7,804 nucleotides of DNA, taken from NCBI GenBank assembly GCA_031255615.1, contig JAIRSD010000075.1:1-7804 (forward strand). Reading direction: 5' to 3'. The DNA is from Treponema sp. (GTDB taxonomy: Bacteria; Spirochaetota; Spirochaetia; Treponematales; Breznakiellaceae). This document shows positions 336 to 6,286 of this stretch, piece after piece. The position numbers were made by a program, and so were the translations under genes. Each line of letters starts with the position of its first letter. The first letter of the stretch is position 1. The notes below the pieces were generated by a model. The model was not told the origin of the DNA. It did no database searches and saw only the letters and a program-made list of their open reading frames with translations.

Positions 336-530
336 CGGCAGGGATGCCGAACCAAAAGGCTGCGCCTTTTGGTTCGGCGGAGTTTCGCGAAGCGAAACTC
401 CCTACCCGCGCAAGGGATAGGAGGGGTGCGGAGCAGCCACGCCGCAGGCGGGGCCGGAGCGATAGCGGAGCCCCGGATAGCCCGGTTTTTTGCGGCCCGC
501 CGCGGGCGGCGGGCCGCAAAAAATGCGCCC
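336..530 (+). repeat. Large hairpin-mosaic repeat, left copy
   Basis: This element is a chain of hairpins and fixed islands. CGGC-AGGGAT-GCCG spans 337-348. A perfect 15-bp stem joins 346-360 to 364-378, and a 10-bp stem with GAA loop joins 379-388 to 392-401. Bases 405-436 are an island identical to 6171-6140 on the other strand. CGCC-GCA-GGCG lies at 440-450 and a GATA-loop mini-hairpin near 465. A second identical island (466-503) matches 6105-6068, and 518-530 match 6067-6055. The hairpin at 486-523 is an 18-bp perfect palindrome arm with T6 on its left and A6 on its right, the reverse of a terminator's polarity when read on either strand. Open frames through it are repeat-derived and not credible genes. 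Confidence 0.85.
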
Positions 531-625
531 AAAAGGAACAAGGACATACGGGGCCTTCCCGTCTTTCTACGCATGGACCGGACGGGCCGGAGTTCCCGCG
601 CTCCGGTTTCCGGTTTACCGCCGCG
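531..625. other. Spacer downstream of htrA, no gene
   Basis: There is no gene here. Two small hairpins are visible: ACGGG/CCCGT (548-552 with 558-562) and CCGGAG/CTCCGG (587-592 with 601-606). Neither has a T-tract on the minus strand, so I see no canonical terminator directly after htrA. Confidence 0.5.
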
Positions 626-2128
626 TTATCGTTTAAACTTCAGGGTCTCCAGGGTTGAACCGCCCCGGTTAAAGTTGAACCACAGTTCACGGGCGGTGTT
701 GTCCCGCAGGAGCCGGTAAAAAGTCCGCAGGTCCCGAATCGTTTGGCCGTTGATTCCCGTAATGACATCCCCCCGCCTGAGGCCGATGATGTCCGCGGGG
801 CTGTCCTGCAAGACCTGGGCGGCGAAGAGTCCCTGGGTGTTTTCAAGGTTAAAGGCGCTGCGGAGCTCGTCGGTGATGGGGACCGCCAGGACGCCGGGCC
901 AGAGTTTCTTGTTGTTCGCCGCCACTTCGTCGGTCCGTTTCTCTATGCGCACCTGAATATTCTGGGCCGCCCCGTCGCGGATCACCGTAAAGGCCGCCTG
1001 GTCTCCGGCCCGCAGATCCCCTACCATCCGGGAGAGGGTGGTAGAATCCCGGGCTTCCTTGCCGTCTACGTGGGTGATGAAATCGCCGGGCTTGATGCCT
1101 CCCTTGTCTGCGGGGGAATCGATGAAGACCTGGGAGGCCAGGGCCCCCCGCTTTCCTTCCGCGGAGAGGGCGGTCAAAATTTCCCGATCCGGGTCGCTGA
1201 GGGAAACTCCCAGCCAGCCGTAGCTGGAACTGCCGGAGGTGATGAGATCCTCGATAACCCGCTTGGCGTTGTTGATGGGGATGGCGAAGCCGAGGCCCAC
1301 CGAACCGCCGGCGTTGTCGCTGGCGATCCAGGTGTTGATGCCTATCACCTCGCCCCGGATATTCACCAGGGCCCCGCCGGAGTTCCCCCGGTTGATGGAG
1401 GAGTCGGTCTGGATGAAGTCGTTGATGTTCCCCGCGGGGCCGCCGGTCCGGCCCACGGCGCTGACGATGCCCATGGTCACCGAGGACATGAAGCCCAGGG
1501 GGTTCCCCACGGCGATGGCCCAGTCCCCGACCCGCACGGAATCCGAATCCCCCAACACGGCCACGGGCAGGATGTCGCCGGTTTTAACGGATACCATGGC
1601 CAGGTCTTTCCTTTCGTCCTTGCCTACCAGTTCCGCCGGGTATTCCGTGCCGTCCACGGTTACCAGGGAAATCTCCGTGGCCCCGTCCACCACATGGTTG
1701 TTGGTCAGCACATAGTAGGCGCCCCCGTCCTGGCGGACCACGATCCCCGATCCCATGCCCTGGGAACGGAATTCCCGTTCCTGGCCCCGGGAATCCGGGG
1801 CCCCCTCCCGGGGGCCGAAGAAAAACTCCCAGGGGATGCCGGGGTAATTGGGCACCTGCTGCCGGCGGACCGACATGGTCTTAATCTCCACCACCGAGGG
1901 GAGCACCTTGTCCGCCACGGCGCCGAAGGCGGTTTGCAGCCCCTCCGCCACCTCCAGGGCGCTGGCCGGAATCGCCGCCGGATTTTCCTCGGCCAGGACG
2001 GTTCGCGGAGACCGGGGGGTGGAACAGGAGAACGAAAGGAAGGCCAGGGAAAACCCAAAAATAATTCCGACCAGGACCAAATTAAAGATAAATAAATTTT
2101 TCGACGCCAGTTTTTGTGTAAAATTCAT
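626..2128 (-). CDS. htrA: HtrA/DegP-family periplasmic serine protease with two PDZ domains
   Basis: A 500-residue envelope protease/chaperone that degrades misfolded exported proteins. Residues 11-34 form a hydrophobic export or anchor segment. It ends LSFSC with Cys35, a loose spirochaete-type lipobox, so the mature protein may be a lipoprotein tethered to a membrane. The trypsin-like domain (about 65-298) carries the full triad: His145 in TNNHVVDG, Asp175 in KDLAMV and Ser250 in GNSGGAL. PDZ1 lies at about 300-398 and PDZ2 at about 408-495, the DegP/DegQ layout and the usual length. An AGGAG motif at 2142-2138 lies upstream of the ATG, which supports the start. It follows map on the same strand, but 385 bp of hairpin repeats intervene, so it is probably transcribed mostly on its own. 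No convincing -35/-10 pair was found just upstream. Confidence 0.97.
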   Translation of the reverse strand: MNFTQKLASKNLFIFNLVLVGIIFGFSLAFLSFSCSTPRSPRTVLAEENPAAIPASALEVAEGLQTAFGAVADKVLPSVVEIKTMSVRRQQVPNYPGIPWEFFFGPREGAPDSRGQEREFRSQGMGSGIVVRQDGGAYYVLTNNHVVDGATEISLVTVDGTEYPAELVGKDERKDLAMVSVKTGDILPVAVLGDSDSVRVGDWAIAVGNPLGFMSSVTMGIVSAVGRTGGPAGNINDFIQTDSSINRGNSGGALVNIRGEVIGINTWIASDNAGGSVGLGFAIPINNAKRVIEDLITSGSSSYGWLGVSLSDPDREILTALSAEGKRGALASQVFIDSPADKGGIKPGDFITHVDGKEARDSTTLSRMVGDLRAGDQAAFTVIRDGAAQNIQVRIEKRTDEVAANNKKLWPGVLAVPITDELRSAFNLENTQGLFAAQVLQDSPADIIGLRRGDVITGINGQTIRDLRTFYRLLRDNTARELWFNFNRGGSTLETLKFKR

Positions 2129-2168
2129 GGACCCTCACTCCTAAAAAAAATATGGACAAATATTTGAC

Positions 2169-2262
2169 CTGTTCCACAACCGGGCCGGTTATGGAACAAA
2201 TCTTGTGAAAAACGCGAATTTTCCGGGGAAATCCGCGTTTTTCGTCGTCTTTAAGCGCCGCC
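2169..2262 (-). repeat. Three-hairpin repeat, inverted partial copy
   Basis: On the minus strand this reads GCGCTTAAAGACGACG, then the A-tract/T-tract hairpin (2208-2222 with 2228-2242), then GTTCCATAACCGG pairing with 2171-2183. This is the same module order as the plus-strand copies (CGCTTAAA linker, middle hairpin, third hairpin). The first hairpin is reduced to a GAAGTTTCC remnant near 2267-2275. The stems differ in sequence from the other copies but still pair, with one C-A mismatch in the third hairpin and one A-C mismatch in the middle one. Confidence 0.7.
2208..2242. terminator. Bidirectional terminator-like hairpin upstream of htrA
   Basis: The core AAAAACGCG (2208-2216) pairs with CGCGTTTTT (2234-2242) and continues inward with one mismatch and a G-T wobble. 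Read on either strand, the right arm ends in T5 after a GC-rich base. It lies 80 bp before the htrA start, on the path of any transcript coming from map, and could limit read-through into htrA. Confidence 0.5.
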
Positions 2263-2274
2263 GCCCGGAAACTT

Positions 2275-2408
2275 CAATAGAGTTGTTCAGAAACTTCAGT
2301 TTCTGAACAACAACCGCTTAAATAAAGAAGAAAAACATGGGTTTCTTCAGGAAACCCATGTTTTTCGCAAGACTTGTTCAATAACCAACCGGGTTATTGA
2401 ACAAGTCC
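2275..2408 (+). repeat. Three-hairpin repeat, complete copy B
   Basis: Three consecutive near-perfect hairpins: 14 bp (2282-2295 with 2298-2311, arm GTTGTTCAGAAACT), 15 bp (2331-2345 with 2351-2365, arm AAAAACATGGGTTTC) and 16 bp (2371-2386 with 2392-2407, arm GACTTGTTCAATAACC). CCGCTTAAA links the first two. The copy at 4570-4703 has the same layout. It is non-coding and lies between map and htrA. Confidence 0.9.
2331..2365. terminator. Bidirectional intrinsic-terminator-like hairpin after map
   Basis: A perfect 15-bp stem with a 5-nt loop starts with A5 and ends with T5. It can therefore act as a hairpin-plus-U-tract on both strands. It lies about 150 bp past the map stop codon and is the best candidate for ending the upstream minus-strand transcript. 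Part of the U-tract pairs within the stem, which may weaken it. Confidence 0.55.
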
Positions 2409-2414
2409 AATTTT

Positions 2415-2463
2415 CGCGGGAACTGGAGTTTCCGGACAACTCCCTTTCAGAACCGCGGTTAAT
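2415..2463 (+). repeat. Degenerate remnant of the first repeat hairpin
   Basis: GGAACTGGAGTTTCCGGACAAC, split here as GGAACTGGAGTTT then CCGGACAAC, resembles the centre and right arm of the first hairpin of the other copies (GAAACTGAAGTTT then CTGAATAAC). It is followed by CAGAACCGCGGTTAA where they have a CCGCTTAA linker. AACCGCGGTT at 2451-2460 is a perfect palindrome. Bases 2464-2513 are AT-rich and featureless. Confidence 0.4.
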
Positions 2464-2513
2464 CAGATTCTATCGTCTGGATTTATCAATTTCTATTACA
2501 AAAATAATAAAAT

Positions 2514-3308
2514 CTAGCGGAAGTTACAAAGGTCGGAAAAAACCAGGGACTCCAGGGGATCGGTCAATATTTCCGTGCGGTCCGCAAAGATCGCCATCGT
2601 ATGCTCCCAATGGGCGGAGGGCCTTTCATCCTCCGTCACCACGGTCCAACCGTCTTCCAGAATCTCCACCGCATCCGTCCCCATGGTGATCATGGGTTCG
2701 ATGGCAATCACCATACCCTTCGACATCCGGGGGTTGGGGCCGTGGGGGTAGTTGGGGACCTGGGGATCCTCATGGAGCTCCAGCCCCACCCCGTGGCCGC
2801 AGAACTGCCGCACCACCCCGTAGTTCCCCAATTTGGCCCGGCCGCTGACCGCCCGGGCGATCTGAAGCAGCCGGTCCCCGGCCCTGGCGGCGGCGATTCC
2901 CCGGTAAAGACACTCCATGGTCGCCCGGTTCAGGGCCTGGAATTCCGGGGACGTCTTCCCCGCCTCCACGGTCACCGCCTGATCGCTGATAAAACCCTCC
3001 AGATCTATGCCGCAGTCCAGGGAAACCAGGTCCCCCTCCCGAATCTTCCGCTTGCCGGGGATTCCGTGGATCACCTCGTTGTTGATGGACACGCAAAGGG
3101 CGGCGGGATAGGGGTTCTTCGGGGAGCCGTAGCCCAAAAACGCCGGCTGGCCCCCGGATTTTTTTATCCAGTCCCGGACCCAGCGTTCCAGTTCTATAGT
3201 CTGGACCCCCGGCTTTACCAGGGGAATAAGCTCCCGGTACATGGCGGAAAGGAGTTTGCAGGACCTGCGAATCCCGTCAATCTGCCGGTCGGTTTTCAGG
3301 CGTATCAT
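2514..3308 (-). CDS. map: Methionine aminopeptidase, type I
   Basis: A 264-residue cytoplasmic dinuclear-metal enzyme that removes the initiator methionine from new proteins. All five expected metal ligands are visible: Asp98 (LDCGID), Asp109 (ISDQAV), His172 (GHGVG), Glu204 (IEPM) and Glu235 (WEHT). The substrate-side histidines His81 (EVIHGIP) and His179 are also present. The spacing almost matches the classic bacterial enzyme. There is no N-terminal zinc-finger extension, so it is the short type Ia form. The ATG lies one base after the stop of the J-domain gene and I see no good Shine-Dalgarno in front of it, which suggests translational coupling. A hairpin repeat follows the stop. Confidence 0.98.
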   Translation of the reverse strand: MIRLKTDRQIDGIRRSCKLLSAMYRELIPLVKPGVQTIELERWVRDWIKKSGGQPAFLGYGSPKNPYPAALCVSINNEVIHGIPGKRKIREGDLVSLDCGIDLEGFISDQAVTVEAGKTSPEFQALNRATMECLYRGIAAARAGDRLLQIARAVSGRAKLGNYGVVRQFCGHGVGLELHEDPQVPNYPHGPNPRMSKGMVIAIEPMITMGTDAVEILEDGWTVVTEDERPSAHWEHTMAIFADRTEILTDPLESLVFSDLCNFR

Positions 3309-3309
3309 G

Positions 3310-4086
3310 CTACACGTTCAACTTTTGCCGAATCCGGCCCGCATTGGGAAGCGCCGGATCCCGCCGCAGGGCTTCCCGGATAATACGGAGGGCGGCGGCG
3401 TTGTCCCCCATCTTCAAAAAAGTTTCCGCCATGGAACGCAGCCAGCGGGCCTCGTCCCGGGGGGGAAAACCGAGTTCCAGCAGGCTTTCCAAACAATCGA
3501 GCCACAGTTCATCCCCCACGGCGGGCCGCAGCCGCAGCCGCACCAATTCCTTAAGGAGACCTTCAACGTCATCCATAAAATGCCTAAAATAGGGCTGCCG
3601 CCGCTCCTCCCTGACCAGTTGAGTCAGAATTTCAAAGGCCTCGTAAGAGCGGTCCCGGCGGTCCAATTCCTCCGCCAAAAGGTACAGACAATCCATCAGA
3701 TCTTCCCGGCCCAGATACTTTTCCATGGGAAAATCCAGGCCGCCGGAACGATCCCACACCGCCAGGGCGTCGTCTTCTTCCAGGTGGAGCAGTTCAAAAA
3801 GAACCAGCTTGGCCCGGTTCGCCGGATCATCGGACCGTTCCCGCAGCCAGGAACGGTAATCAAATTCAACCCGGTTGATAAAGCGGCTGTAGGCCCGGTC
3901 GTATTCGTAACGCCGATCCCGATCCGCCAGAACCTCGTAGGCGGTAAGGAGCTTCCGCATCTCCTCCTCCGCCCCGTTCCCCGCGATATCCGGGTGCAGC
4001 CGCTTGGCCTTGTCCCGAAAGGCCCGTTTAATTTCCTGCGTAGAGGCGTTCTGCCGGATTCCCAGCATCGTATAGTAGTCGGTCAT
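3310..4086 (-). CDS. J-domain (DnaJ-like) co-chaperone with helical C-terminus
   Basis: A 258-residue protein. Residues 3-65 form a J domain with the HPD motif at 31-33, which stimulates the ATPase of an Hsp70 partner. The Gly/Phe region, the zinc-finger repeats and the substrate domain of true DnaJ are missing, so this is a type III J protein. The rest (about 66-258) is charged and helical, and about 212-245 (RSMAETFLKMGDNAAALRII) looks like one TPR-type helix pair. An adjacent GTG at 4089 precedes the ATG at 4086. I chose the ATG because AGGA lies five bases before it and only two before the GTG. It is followed one base later by map. Its client is unknown; the pairing with map and htrA suggests protein maturation or envelope quality control. 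Confidence 0.9.
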   Translation of the reverse strand: MTDYYTMLGIRQNASTQEIKRAFRDKAKRLHPDIAGNGAEEEMRKLLTAYEVLADRDRRYEYDRAYSRFINRVEFDYRSWLRERSDDPANRAKLVLFELLHLEEDDALAVWDRSGGLDFPMEKYLGREDLMDCLYLLAEELDRRDRSYEAFEILTQLVREERRQPYFRHFMDDVEGLLKELVRLRLRPAVGDELWLDCLESLLELGFPPRDEARWLRSMAETFLKMGDNAAALRIIREALRRDPALPNAGRIRQKLNV

Positions 4087-4114
4087 CACGATCCTGCCCC
4101 TTCAGCCGCCAAGA

Positions 4115-4522
4115 CTAGAGCCCGATACGCTTCCCAAGGGCTTCCGCGTGGGGTGGATTCAGGAGAATCTCGCTCCAGTTTACCCGCATCCCTTCCTTTT
4201 CCATAGCCTTCATCACGTTAAAAAGGGCCCGGGAGGAAAAAAGACCGCCCTTTTTTACAAAGGCCGCGCTCCGCTTCCCCCCCAAACCGCTGCCCGCGGA
4301 AAGAATTTTCCCCAGCGGCTCGGGAAGTTTTCCGGAAAAAAAGCCGGTAGACTCCGCCGCCACGGCGATATATTCGTAACCGGGAAGCCGCATCCCGTCT
4401 TCCGTCCATGCGTCGATCAGATCCACCCGGTGCCCCATGGATTCCATCCCCTTTGCCAGGGCGCCGGCATAATCGGGGATACCCCCCCGCTGCCGGGGGA
4501 CGCAGACTATCGCTATTCTCAT
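4115..4522 (-). CDS. Small flavodoxin-fold-like protein of unknown function
   Basis: 135 residues beginning MRIAIVCVPRQRGG. The pattern of a first beta strand, a glycine loop, a helix (DYAGALAKGMESMGH), a strand (RVDLID) and a later strand (YEYIAVAAES) followed by TGFFSGKLPEPL resembles the first two thirds of a flavodoxin. The usual T/S-x-T-G-x-T phosphate loop is not there, so FMN binding is doubtful. The open frame continues upstream to 4756, but those 78 extra residues are read through the hairpin repeat at 4570-4703. GGGGAAG at 4532-4526, just before the ATG at 4522, fixes the true start. It sits about 28 bases before the J-domain gene and probably shares its transcript. No role is assigned. 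Confidence 0.75.
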   Translation of the reverse strand: MRIAIVCVPRQRGGIPDYAGALAKGMESMGHRVDLIDAWTEDGMRLPGYEYIAVAAESTGFFSGKLPEPLGKILSAGSGLGGKRSAAFVKKGGLFSSRALFNVMKAMEKEGMRVNWSEILLNPPHAEALGKRIGL

Positions 4523-4569
4523 AAACTTCCCCGTTGTAAAGCAGAAATTTTCCTGTGCGAAAATTAAAA

Positions 4570-4703
4570 AATAGAGTTGCTCAGAAACTTCACTTTTTGA
4601 ACAACAACCGCTTAAAAACGAAGAAAAACGTGGATTCCCTCGGGAAACCCACGTTTTTCGCGGGGCCTGTTCGATAACCAAGGGGGTTATTGAACAAACC
4701 CAA
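4570..4703 (+). repeat. Three-hairpin repeat, complete copy C
   Basis: The layout is that of the copy at 2275-2408: ATAGAG, first hairpin (4576-4605), CCGCTTAAA linker, middle hairpin (4624-4658), third hairpin (4664-4700). The first stem is eroded, with a C-A mismatch and G-T wobble. The middle stem carries GTGG/CCAC where the other copy has ATGG/CCAT, a compensated change. The third has two C-A mismatches and a wobble. It lies between the usp stop and the start of the flavodoxin-like gene. Confidence 0.88.
4624..4658. terminator. Bidirectional terminator-like hairpin after the atpD-usp pair
   Basis: AAAAACGTGG (4624-4633) pairs with CCACGTTTTT (4649-4658), and the inner TTCC/GGAA continues the stem past a one-base bulge. 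The T5 end on the minus strand lies about 130 bp after the usp stop, and downstream genes begin at 4522. It is a plausible operon boundary. Confidence 0.5.
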
Positions 4704-4785
4704 TATTCCTCCGCAGGATCCGCAAAATCTCCGCCCGCTTTTAAGACCGCCTGCACCGCCTGCGGCCCCTTTTCGGCCCTGTTTA

Positions 4786-5271
4786 TCAGGCCTGTTTATA
4801 TAGAAGGTCGATGCCGGGCTCTTTCGCCAGCAGGACCGAACATTTGGCGTTTACCAGGATTTCCCGGTGGGCGGGGCCGATAATATCCCGGGGATTCCGG
4901 TTCTTCTCCCAGCCCCCCAGGATGATAAGATCCGCCCTTTTATCGTCCGCCGCCGCGAGAATTTCGGAATACACCGCCCCCCGGCGGATCTCCCGTTCGA
5001 TCTTCACCCCCTTGGCCCGGGCCAGCTCCTCCACGAAGGACAGATACCGTTCCCCGTTGGCGTTGAGACTCTTTTCATAATCCAGACTTTCTTCCTGAAT
5101 AAAAATCTTGCTCAAGGTAAGCTGCCGGATAGTGGCGGTGTCCACCACATAAACCGCGGTCATCCTGCAACGGTAGGCCTTGGACATGATAATGGCATAC
5201 TTGGCCGCCAGAATCGAGGCGTCGGAACCGGTAATGCCGACAATGATGTGGGATATAATAGGCTTTATCAT
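4786..5271 (-). CDS. Universal stress protein (UspA) family protein
   Basis: A 161-residue single Usp domain: N-terminal strand IISHIIVGITGSDAS, strand MTAVYVVD at 37-44, long central helix with ANGERYLSFVEELARAKGV, and C-terminal strands DLIILGG (114-120) and CSVLLAK. The ATP-binding signature G-x2-G-x9-G-S/T is degraded. The first glycine is present (119/120), the second is not in place, and the last position reads GPAH at 132-135, so it may not bind ATP in the classic way. The ATG overlaps the stop of the V-ATPase D gene as ATGA, so the two are translationally coupled. That suggests a link between energy state and the ATPase, which is inference. No cysteine or DNA-binding feature suggests a further role. 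Confidence 0.87.
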   Translation of the reverse strand: MIKPIISHIIVGITGSDASILAAKYAIIMSKAYRCRMTAVYVVDTATIRQLTLSKIFIQEESLDYEKSLNANGERYLSFVEELARAKGVKIEREIRRGAVYSEILAAADDKRADLIILGGWEKNRNPRDIIGPAHREILVNAKCSVLLAKEPGIDLLYKQA

Positions 5272-5891
5272 TCGGCGCCGGCCTTCCTCTTGAGCAGTTT
5301 ACTGGTAAAAAACGAATCCCGGTCCCGCTCCTCCAGGGCCGCCTCGATATAGGCCTTGGTTTCCCTGGCGCTGGGAATAACCATCTTTTCCAGGGCGTTC
5401 ACCCGCCGCTGGGTCTTCCGCAGCTCCCGGGCAAGCCGCCAGGCGATAGTCCGCACCGCCGCAAGTTCGGTGCAGATCCTAAGCAGTTGGAAGAATTCTA
5501 GCACAGTTTCATCACATTCGGCAAACGAATTCGCCGGAGAGTATTTTAACTCCACACCGGGCAGACGGATCTCCAGACCCGGCAGCGTCATCCCCGCGGC
5601 ATTCACCCGCTTTTCCTCCAACTCAAAATGGTAATGAATATCCCGGGACAAACGGTCCGCCCGCTCCCGGCCCACGGCGATAAGCATCCGCTTCAAAGCC
5701 GGATAAGCGACCGCCGCCCTGGCGTCCAGGTCCCGCTCCAGCAGCTTTACCCGCTCCACCTGCTGCATCAATTCCATCACCAGCAGCTCCCGCTTCTGCT
5801 CCAGCAGATCGTAGCCCTCCTCCGCGGTGGCGAGCCGTTCCTTCATGCGGATAAGATTGCTTTTTGTCGGCGCTACCGGTTCCCGGGCCAT
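5268..5891 (-). CDS. atpD: V/A-type ATPase subunit D (central rotor stalk)
   Basis: A 207-residue subunit forming, with subunit F, the rotating axle inside the A3B3 head of the V/A-type ATPase at the cytoplasmic face of the membrane. The N-terminal helix with PTKSNLIRMKERLATAEEG (8-26) and the C-terminal helix with RRVNALEKMVIP (162-173) and IEAALEERDRDSF (182-194) are the family hallmarks. They form the antiparallel coiled coil, with a globular middle at about 60-125. The length is normal. The start is supported by a strong purine-rich GGGAGGGGGAAGG just before the ATG. No other ATPase subunit is visible: gltX lies upstream and usp downstream. The gene is therefore separated from subunits A/B on one side and I/K on the other, its usual neighbours in spirochaete operons. 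Confidence 0.97.
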   Translation of the reverse strand: MAREPVAPTKSNLIRMKERLATAEEGYDLLEQKRELLVMELMQQVERVKLLERDLDARAAVAYPALKRMLIAVGRERADRLSRDIHYHFELEEKRVNAAGMTLPGLEIRLPGVELKYSPANSFAECDETVLEFFQLLRICTELAAVRTIAWRLARELRKTQRRVNALEKMVIPSARETKAYIEAALEERDRDSFFTSKLLKRKAGAE

Positions 5892-6054
5892 ATCCTTCCC
5901 CCTCCCTACTTTAATAAAAATCCTCCCCTTTTAACAGTACCCCCGCCCCGCCGACTCAGCGGCCCACCGGCCACGGGAGAAACAATTCCCGGCCAGGAAG
6001 ATGCCCCGGGACTGATTGGCGGATTGTTGGATTGGATTATCAAGTGTATATATA
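5892..6054 (-). other. Leader region of the atpD-usp pair, no gene
   Basis: No open frame here resembles a protein. The segment carries the atpD ribosome-binding site at its left end and GTATATATA near 6045-6053, which could be part of a -10 element. No well-spaced -35 box accompanies it, so I do not call a promoter. GGCCGGTGGGCCG near 5960-5972 and CGGGGCATCTTCCTGGCCGGG show local self-complementarity without a clear stem. Confidence 0.5.
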
Positions 6055-6257
6055 GGGCGCATTTTTTGCGGCGGGCCGCAAAAAACCGGGCTATCCGGGG
6101 CTCCGGCTTCGCCTCCGGCCCCGGCGCTGCGCGCCGGGTCTGCTCCGCACCCCTCCTATCCCTTGCGCGGGCGAAAGCCGCGCCGCGGCTTTCGCCTTCC
6201 GAAAATCCGCATCCCTGCGGATTTTCAGCCCGGGGTTTTACTCCGCAAAACCCCGGG
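6055..6257 (-). repeat. Large hairpin-mosaic repeat, right copy, inverted
   Basis: Read on the minus strand from 6257, the order is: an 11-bp stem CCCGGGGTTTT with loop GCGGAGT (6229-6257); GAAAATCCGC-AGGGAT-GCGGATTTTC (6201-6226); a 13-bp stem GGCGAAAGCCGCG (6170-6182 with 6184-6196); the identical island 6171-6140; CCGGCGC-GCA-GCGCCGG (6121-6137); GGC-GAA-GCC (6105-6113); the second identical island 6105-6068; and AAAAAATGCGCCC to 6055. The T6/A6 hairpin here lacks 14 bases present in the left copy (504-517), so its stem is 10 bp instead of 18. It lies between gltX and the V-ATPase D gene. Confidence 0.85.
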
Positions 6258-6261
6258 AAAT

Positions 6262-6286
6262 GGAAACAGCCGGCCTCCCTGCCGGC
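6262..6286 (-). terminator. Possible gltX terminator hairpin
   Basis: GCCGGC (6286-6281) and GCCGGC (6274-6269) enclose the loop AGGGAG and are followed by TGTTTCC on the minus strand, about 37 bases past the gltX stop. The T-run is short. The loop matches the AGGGAT loops of the adjoining repeat, so it may belong to that element instead. Confidence 0.35.

Follow-up and report, generated by a model that had tools for sequence, protein, structure and literature searches.

The 7,804-nucleotide (nt) stretch of contig JAIRSD010000075.1 from Treponema sp. (assembly GCA_031255615.1), called the window below, carries two copies of a repeat with constant islands and variable stems. These repeats are almost certainly arm-variant relatives of the Flavo-1 family (RF01705), though not members of it by the Rfam cut-off. 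Their arms are probably exchanged by recombination. Between folded DNA and RNA as the working form, the balance appears even, and the statement as a whole, a Flavo-1 arm-variant family with arm exchange by recombination and folded single-stranded DNA as its working form, might equally prove right or wrong.

Copy A (408..530, plus strand) and copy B (6055..6168, minus strand) lie on opposite strands around a gene block. They share three exact blocks, of 38 nt (466-503 in copy A and 6068-6105, minus, in copy B), 32 nt (405-436 and 6140-6171, minus) and 18 nt (513-530 and 6055-6072, minus); with 200 shuffles of copy B, the longest block was 11 nt. A preliminary description of the window had listed identical islands of 32, 38 and 13 nt. 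The first two were found as described, and the third proved to be 18 nt long. The extents given there, 336-530 and 6055-6257, had to be shortened, because alignment of other copies placed the start of the unit at GCGCA (408; 6168, minus) and its end at TGCGCCC. Covariance model R1 scored copy A at 107.9 bits (404-534, plus) and copy B at 101.0 bits (6051-6172, minus), both being members of its training set, which excludes the Hymenobacter copy L091 and copies with long inserts.

Comparison of the copies revealed a three-arm fold made up of a closing stem P1 (GCGNN/N'N'CGC), an arm P2 and a hairpin P3. In copy A, structure and covariation placed P1 at 408-412/524-528, followed by one A, a GGG/CCC helix (414-416/481-483), U-N pairs (418-419/478-479) within a purine-rich internal loop (AUNGGA facing GGAN'AG), P2 (423-426/471-474) and P3 (486-523), with no linker before P1'. 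The conserved junction core reads AGGGAUNGNAGNGG ... CGNANAGCCCG. In window-type copies, P2 is GGGG/CCCC and contains a mini-hairpin TGC-GNA-GCA plus one or two inner hairpins. The mini-hairpin of copy A is TGC-GGA-GCA at 427..435 (plus), with a triloop of the GNA type counted below. The inner hairpin hp1 is CCACGCC-GCA-GGCGGGG at 437..453 (plus) in copy A and CCCGGCGC-GCA-GCGCCGGG at 6120..6138 (minus) in copy B, which has the same architecture. The GCA loops of the two hairpins (444-446; 6128-6130, minus) are equivalent, as had been proposed; each sits on a different stem, and both stems pair (CGCC/GGCG versus CCGGCGC/GCGCCGG). The GAA loops that had been likened to each other are not comparable, since the one at 389-391 belongs to an outer hairpin of copy A and the one at 6108-6110 to an inner hairpin of copy B. 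P3, a simple hairpin, varies greatly in sequence; it is 14 to ~240 nt long in parsed copies and shorter in copy B (TTTTTTGCGG-CCCG-CCGCAAAAAA, 6062-6085, minus) than in copy A. Whole elements measured from ~85 to >300 nt and were mostly intergenic; 9 of the 79 parsed copies had no recognisable second island or end.

The relation to Flavo-1 became evident in genome G001. Its Flavo-1-grade and window-type copies shared P1, AAGGGATAG, GGATAGCCCGG, ATGCGCCC and mostly P3, and they differed in P2. Twenty Flavo-1-grade copies fetched from it had the 3' end of window-type copies, and their P3 was mostly of the family TCCCC..GGGGA (L383 differed). From the shared P1, islands, 3' end and, mostly, P3, we deduced that the window copies belong to the Flavo-1 family as arm variants. 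The Flavo-1 model matched 86 places in G001 and 87 in genome G034 at E ≤0.01 among the best 150 candidates scored, most of those listed being above the cut-off (gathering score 42) and the top G001 copies reaching up to 64 bits. It matched nothing in 14 control genomes, and it placed four viral copies (L175, L176, L179, and L180) above the gathering score. Several G001 places were matched by both R1 and the Flavo-1 model. A second model, R2, which was trained on alignment A4 with its many viral copies and not on the Flavo-1-grade loci, recovered 36 of 40 of them. P1 and P3, unpaired in the Rfam model, whose modelled arm is P2, covaried in Flavo-1-grade copies; 36 of these from G001 and G034 had 96.3% of cells paired and a covariation score of 0.460, compared with 0.154 after shuffling. 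The affiliation is opposed by the window copies themselves, which gave no Flavo-1 match at E ≤10, so that the gathering score was not reached.

The proposal that pairing, not sequence, is maintained was supported. In a model-fitted alignment of 93 distinct copies, pairing held in 96.2% of the cells, compared with 69.9% after shuffling and 35-49% after sliding. Double changes were present at all 32 pairs, and the covariation score was 0.486 versus 0.114 (shuffled) and ≤0.071 (slid). A set of 21 copies gave 97.6% paired cells versus 86.9% when shuffled. All four Watson-Crick types occurred at the inner pairs of P1, and the GGG/CCC helix covaried (GGG/CCC, ACG/CGT, AGG/CCT). Folded singly as RNA, seven copies exceeded their shuffles in stability weakly at best (z -0.01 to -3.31), and thus the case for structure rests on covariation, not on energy. 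Among 47 copy pairs from genome G126 that were >80% alike and not independent of each other, 83 double Watson-Crick, 33 one-sided and 4 other changes were counted. Paired changes with few intermediates, like the occurrence of a loop in both orientations in near-identical copies, could also be produced by mutation bias alone, with template switching between hairpin arms keeping palindromes perfect without any function. P1 (5 bp) and the GGG/CCC helix, however, pair across ~50 to 300 nt and still covary, the islands are shared between phyla, and in 17 of 21 orthologous pairs the copies were more conserved than either flank. Mutation bias as the sole cause is thus very improbable.

Exchange of an arm was observed in place at one orthologous site. 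When L126, L130, and L127 were compared with the orthologous L143, P1, P3 and the flanks (88-97%) were kept and the whole P2 arm was replaced, the elements being 75-76% alike. Within G001, different P2 arms likewise occurred on the same P1, islands and, mostly, P3. Stem families were found within genomes, for example TCCCC..GGGGA in G001, TGGGGC..GCCCCA in genome G002 and TTTGCGGCG in young copies of genome G004, and P3 stems mostly formed such families. The preliminary description had held that fixed stem families would argue against its view; this applies in part, in that outer stem bases mostly form families within one genome. Recombination between copies, with crossing over in the islands, would replace whole arms and move both strands of a stem together. 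The pattern of constant island and variable stem would arise from such replacement combined with the need for both ends to pair. The 21 orthologous pairs comprised 603 pair cells, among which double changes numbered 21, single changes 12 and other changes 3.

Near-identical young copies in G004 were found at eight places (nine rows, one place being represented twice), which are unrelated loci. They shared only ~20-45 nt of 5' flank and 15 nt of 3' flank, and the 5' side was ragged. Among them, the loop of an inner hairpin was seen in both orientations (GGCGCATTGCGCC and GGCGCAATGCGCC; GCGCATTGCGC and GCGCAATGCGC), L035, L043, and L045 having one and L039, L088, and L090 the other, which suggests hairpin flipping. 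Three almost identical divergent copies in G126 (L198:15310, 15538, and 17723) lay within ~2.5 kb and represent a local duplication.

Once in place, the element was conserved. The 17 pairs mentioned above, in which the element was more alike than both 300-nt flanks, came from a set of six loci in five closely related genomes; in one example the element was identical at 103/103 positions, whereas the flanks were 91.3% and 82.2% alike. Identity was counted without gaps, and some flanks were non-homologous (e.g. 5' of L226). The exceptions were the three swapped-arm pairs and L226/L227. At locus L236 in genome G233, the element that is missing from the G151 site discussed below carried an insert of ~144 nt in P2 with TTC at both insert ends.

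The working form was assessed from mismatches, loops and orientation. G-T cells made up 53 of 4886 (1.1%) in alignments A3 and A4 together, which share at least one copy (L094), compared with 25 of 277 (9.0%) in 13 distinct tRNAs from the fetched loci (Fisher p ~8e-14). The tRNA set is small, and the tRNA finder demands pairing, so that its A-C count of 0 means little. In the Flavo-1-grade copies, 924 Watson-Crick, 16 G-T, 10 A-C and 26 other cells were counted. An alignment-free count of P3, based on the 177 copies (out of 205 distinct ones) in which P3 could be delimited, yielded 1206 Watson-Crick, 13 G-T, 1 A-C and 23 other pairs, which points to a modest preference for the plus strand. As G-T and A-C were both rare in the model-based counts, it is the P3 count and the loop types that carry the claim of strand specificity. 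GNA triloops, which are exceptionally stable in DNA, were present in 59 of 93 cases (GGA 27, GAA 24, GCA 7, GTA 1). The tetraloops listed comprised 25 GNRA and 42 GNYA (GATA 15, GAAA 14, GTTA 14, GCAA 7, GACA 5) and hence no GNRA bias.

Orientation was not fixed either. According to a simple open reading frame (ORF) caller, 63 of 71 copies in G126 (3 of 74 at locus ends were dropped) and 21 of 21 in G034 lay outside ORFs. Intergenic copies between co-directional neighbours were sense in 22 and antisense in 18 cases in G126, and in 4 and 10 cases in G034. The inverted arrangement stressed in the preliminary description is real in the window, but it is nothing special in view of these two genomes. 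No replication-strand bias was seen by GC skew (22 minus/18 plus at positive skew, 21/13 at negative skew). In Flavobacterium psychrophilum, hits of Flavo-1 are, in passages of one study, indistinctly sense or antisense, and many lie outside 5' transcribed regions (PMC9723704). The rarity of G-T, the lack of GNRA bias and the unfixed orientation together favour folded DNA over RNA without proving it.

A structured non-coding RNA, i.e. a small RNA or cis element selected as a transcript, as which Rfam files Flavo-1 (type sRNA), is a possible alternative that we consider doubtful. It would account for the strong covariation, the conservation in place and the preference for G-T over A-C in P3 (13 versus 1); the coincidence of several hits with 5' transcribed regions in F. 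psychrophilum, taken up below, agrees with it as well. It fits poorly with the G-T frequency, the tetraloops and the unfixed orientation given above, and with the presence of >100 divergent matches in one genome.

For the combination of arm exchange, dispersal and folded DNA, a number of observations have to be set on the other side. Eighteen of the 21 double changes in orthologous pairs stem from one arm swap, and the 3 outside it are outnumbered by 12 one-sided changes. The larger later alignments were fitted to a model, which favours pairing. G-T and A-C cells in A3 and A4 (53 versus 37) did not differ clearly by a sign test (p = 0.11), and 34 of 93 triloops were not GNA (including TCT 19 and TCC 8). 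Several 5' transcribed regions of F. psychrophilum coincide with Flavo-1 hits, according to passages of the same study (PMC9723704). Conservation in place would be expected just as much if the element functioned as RNA or served the host in a way that has nothing to do with movement. One orthologous site without the element (in G151) is equally like a deletion, a clean empty site showing a target duplication was not encountered, and no mobiliser was found among the candidates examined. Relatives of G126 were too distant to show empty sites.

The search for such a mobiliser included the enzymes suggested in the preliminary description. A REP-like or BIME-like element (repetitive extragenic palindrome; bacterial interspersed mosaic element) moved by a REP-associated tyrosine transposase (RAYT, Y1), or an element retroposed with the help of a reverse transcriptase, would be small, palindromic, intergenic and present in many copies, as this element is, and the ragged 5' side of the young G004 copies could be explained in this way. 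The gene counts spoke against it. Y1_Tnp was present in 21 of 57 element genomes and in 97 of 239 others (the overlap was counted by eye). Three of the most copy-rich genomes counted (G001, G002, and G126) yielded no match to it, though drafts may miss genes. RVT_1 exceeded the cut-off in 3 of 14 element genomes. No transposase was recognised by eye, without a family search, in the 25 largest protein clusters beside copies. The suggested link thus fails as a general explanation, and this origin is very unlikely. Another reading considered was a folded-DNA site resembling attC, on which an integrase of the integron type would act, since structure outweighs sequence here too and the integron integrase (TIGR02249) was over the cut-off in 4 of 14 element genomes (G116, G162, G233, and G289). 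In the other 10, including G001, G002, G034, and G126, it stayed below the cut-off, as in all 14 controls. The attC core is GTT/AAC, whereas P1 takes all pair types and leaves no such fixed core at the ends; this reading is highly improbable. RAYT, reverse transcriptase and integron integrase were all rejected as general partners on genome counts. With no mobiliser found, the preliminary verdict of an unknown maker stands, but the element itself is not wholly unknown, because it belongs with the Flavo-1 motif.

The occurrence of the element was then surveyed. In searches of >40 genomes the best 12 candidates of each were scored, so that genome counts are lower bounds; 150 were scored for the counts in G001, G034 and G126. 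A 20-nt segment of the 32-nt island was matched exactly in 15 contig stretches of reference genomes; every one came from a metagenome-assembled genome whose title reads Spirochaetaceae, Spirochaetia, Treponema or Clostridiales Family XIII. In five genomes, the pattern of island 1 (≤3 mismatches) had 6, 92, 1, 12 and 7 occurrences, and its reversal had 0 in each of them. R1 was positive in at least 57 of 296 Spirochaetota genomes. It gave 108 and 107 matches in G126 and G001 at E ≤0.01 with the best 150 candidates scored, and 74 matches fell within 397 kb of G126, a stretch chosen for its density. The 92 copies belong to G002, a metagenome genome titled Clostridiales Family XIII (L002, L005, L007, L046-L085). 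Among the candidates scored from 299 genomes of its phylum, R1 matched G002 alone. Horizontal gain is the probable explanation, or else the bin is mislabelled. Two other repeat families in G126 (L186-L205) often end where the element begins, at its 5' flank, and one of them resembles, by eye, TD-2 on the other strand. BLAST of plasmids and phages with a window copy returned weak matches, taken for chance, except in Hymenobacter. Three Hymenobacter plasmids beyond the query's own record carry similar sequence, R1 matches all four, and copy L091 has a GGGG/CCCC arm. Altogether, records with the element are titled as three phyla, to which viral contigs are added, and the islands are common to phyla.

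The consensus pattern matched 25 viral contigs. R1, without viral training, matched 17 of the 23 tested at E ≤0.11; R2 matched 24 of the 25 and is not independent, having been trained partly on viral copies. In 10 of the 25 contigs, the stop codon of a terminase-like gene preceded the core of the pattern by 15-49 nt, with the end of the element closer still, and the copy was antisense in 10/10. Two pairs of these contigs are close relatives, and the other TerL comparisons gave 25-60% identity. Relatives of the terminase-like gene occur in phages of Microcystis, Flavobacterium, Cellulophaga, and Porphyromonas and in others, some being annotated as terminase large subunit. R2, which may miss divergent copies, matched 2 of 80 loci in one TerL family, both on contigs already known; a position after terL was rejected on this count as a general viral rule. 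In another TerL family it matched directly after terL in 13 of 52 loci; three of these were known contigs, and four were identical to each other in score and coordinates. A close clade of 17 loci (L322-L338) accounts for twelve of the 13, with one more (L325) recognised by eye. The position after terL is a clade feature, not a general rule. Among L242-L373, many viral contigs of this terminase family without the element showed by eye a recurrent short motif after terL (ATATATGCC/TAATATGCC), perhaps a packaging signal.

In the window, the genes comprise an HtrA/Do protease, methionine aminopeptidase, a DnaJ domain, V-ATPase subunit D and GltX; together with the island matches, they point to a spirochaete. 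Hairpin modules upstream of copy A (336..402, plus), CGGC-AGGGAT-GCCG and two more, lie outside the unit; they were absent at the equivalent place in the other copies examined and had no Rfam match at E ≤1. AGGGAT, presented in the preliminary description as a persistent loop at 341-346, lies at 340-345 and belongs to these outer modules. Next to copy B, the hairpins at 6170-6257 are likewise separate modules, and a TD-2-like sequence upstream of it (6194..6286, minus; RF03162, 44.8 bits, gathering score 48.7) forms a separate module. A second hairpin repeat family was seen in the window. Its 47-nt part occurs at 287-333, 2276-2322 and 4570-4616 (89-94% to a reference copy), directly preceding the modules of copy A at the first of these positions, and its 95-nt part at 2321-2415 and 4614-4708 (81%). 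Its stems differ yet largely pair (GAAAAACATGGGTTTC versus GAAAAACGTGGATTCC).

Folded single-stranded DNA of the plus strand would be the working form; replication or movement of the element might expose it. A putative protein would recognise the junction core and the GNA/GNNA mini-loops and would also copy the element to new sites. It is a speculative and rather unlikely extension that Flavo-1-type elements are structure-addressed DNA, i.e. a single-stranded three-way junction with swappable arms that a putative enzyme, common to several phyla and their phages, would copy and recombine, and that would be retained at fixed sites (e.g. directly after terL in one viral clade) because it serves the host or the phage there.

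Flavo-1 has so far been treated as RNA in passages of three publications (PMC2864571, PMC9029176, PMC9723704), and those passages describe neither P1/P3 nor arm exchange, copy numbers >100 or the terL position. It was listed for Bacteroidetes as a candidate structured RNA in a 2010 table (PMC2864571), and its hits in F. psychrophilum are said to have offered no real clue to function (PMC9723704). A literature search by the core letters returned nothing that looked relevant among the titles listed, one match being a 16S primer. The present analysis adds the full Flavo-1 fold, now including P1 and P3, an arm variant that had escaped recognition, >100 matches in single genomes, arm exchange, the rarity of G-T, the conservation in place and the terL-adjacent position in one viral clade. 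These features allow direct tests of whether RNA or folded DNA is at work and of what moves the element.

Several known systems resemble it in part. At attC sites, pairing outweighs sequence and the arms are variable; the present element differs in having no fixed core ends, and the integron integrase is not general. As regards miniature inverted-repeat transposable elements (MITEs), P1 constitutes a 5-bp terminal inverted repeat, and no target duplication was seen at the one site without the element. REP and BIME sequences are, in the passages concerned, also small, palindromic, intergenic and numerous (PMC3733652), whereas the element is a three-way junction with a conserved core and without Y1 association. 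The REP palindromes of RAYT systems bear a GTAG/CGTC tag at one of their ends (PMC3733652). TD-1 and TD-2 RNAs (RF03155, RF03162) are multi-hairpin motifs of one Rfam clan; a sub-threshold TD-1 match lies ~1 kb from another copy in L133 and a sub-threshold TD-2 match upstream of copy B, but neither model matches the element itself, the TD-2 match at 6194-6286 being outside the unit. With Flavo-1, the element has in common the core GGGAUNGNAGNGG ... GCGNANAGCCC, the position of the P2 arm, the lack of a fixed sense and matches in Spirochaetota genomes and viral contigs. It differs in that P2 of the window copies is GGGG/CCCC with a GNA mini-hairpin and two inner hairpins, and in that P1 and P3, left unpaired by the Rfam model, are paired.

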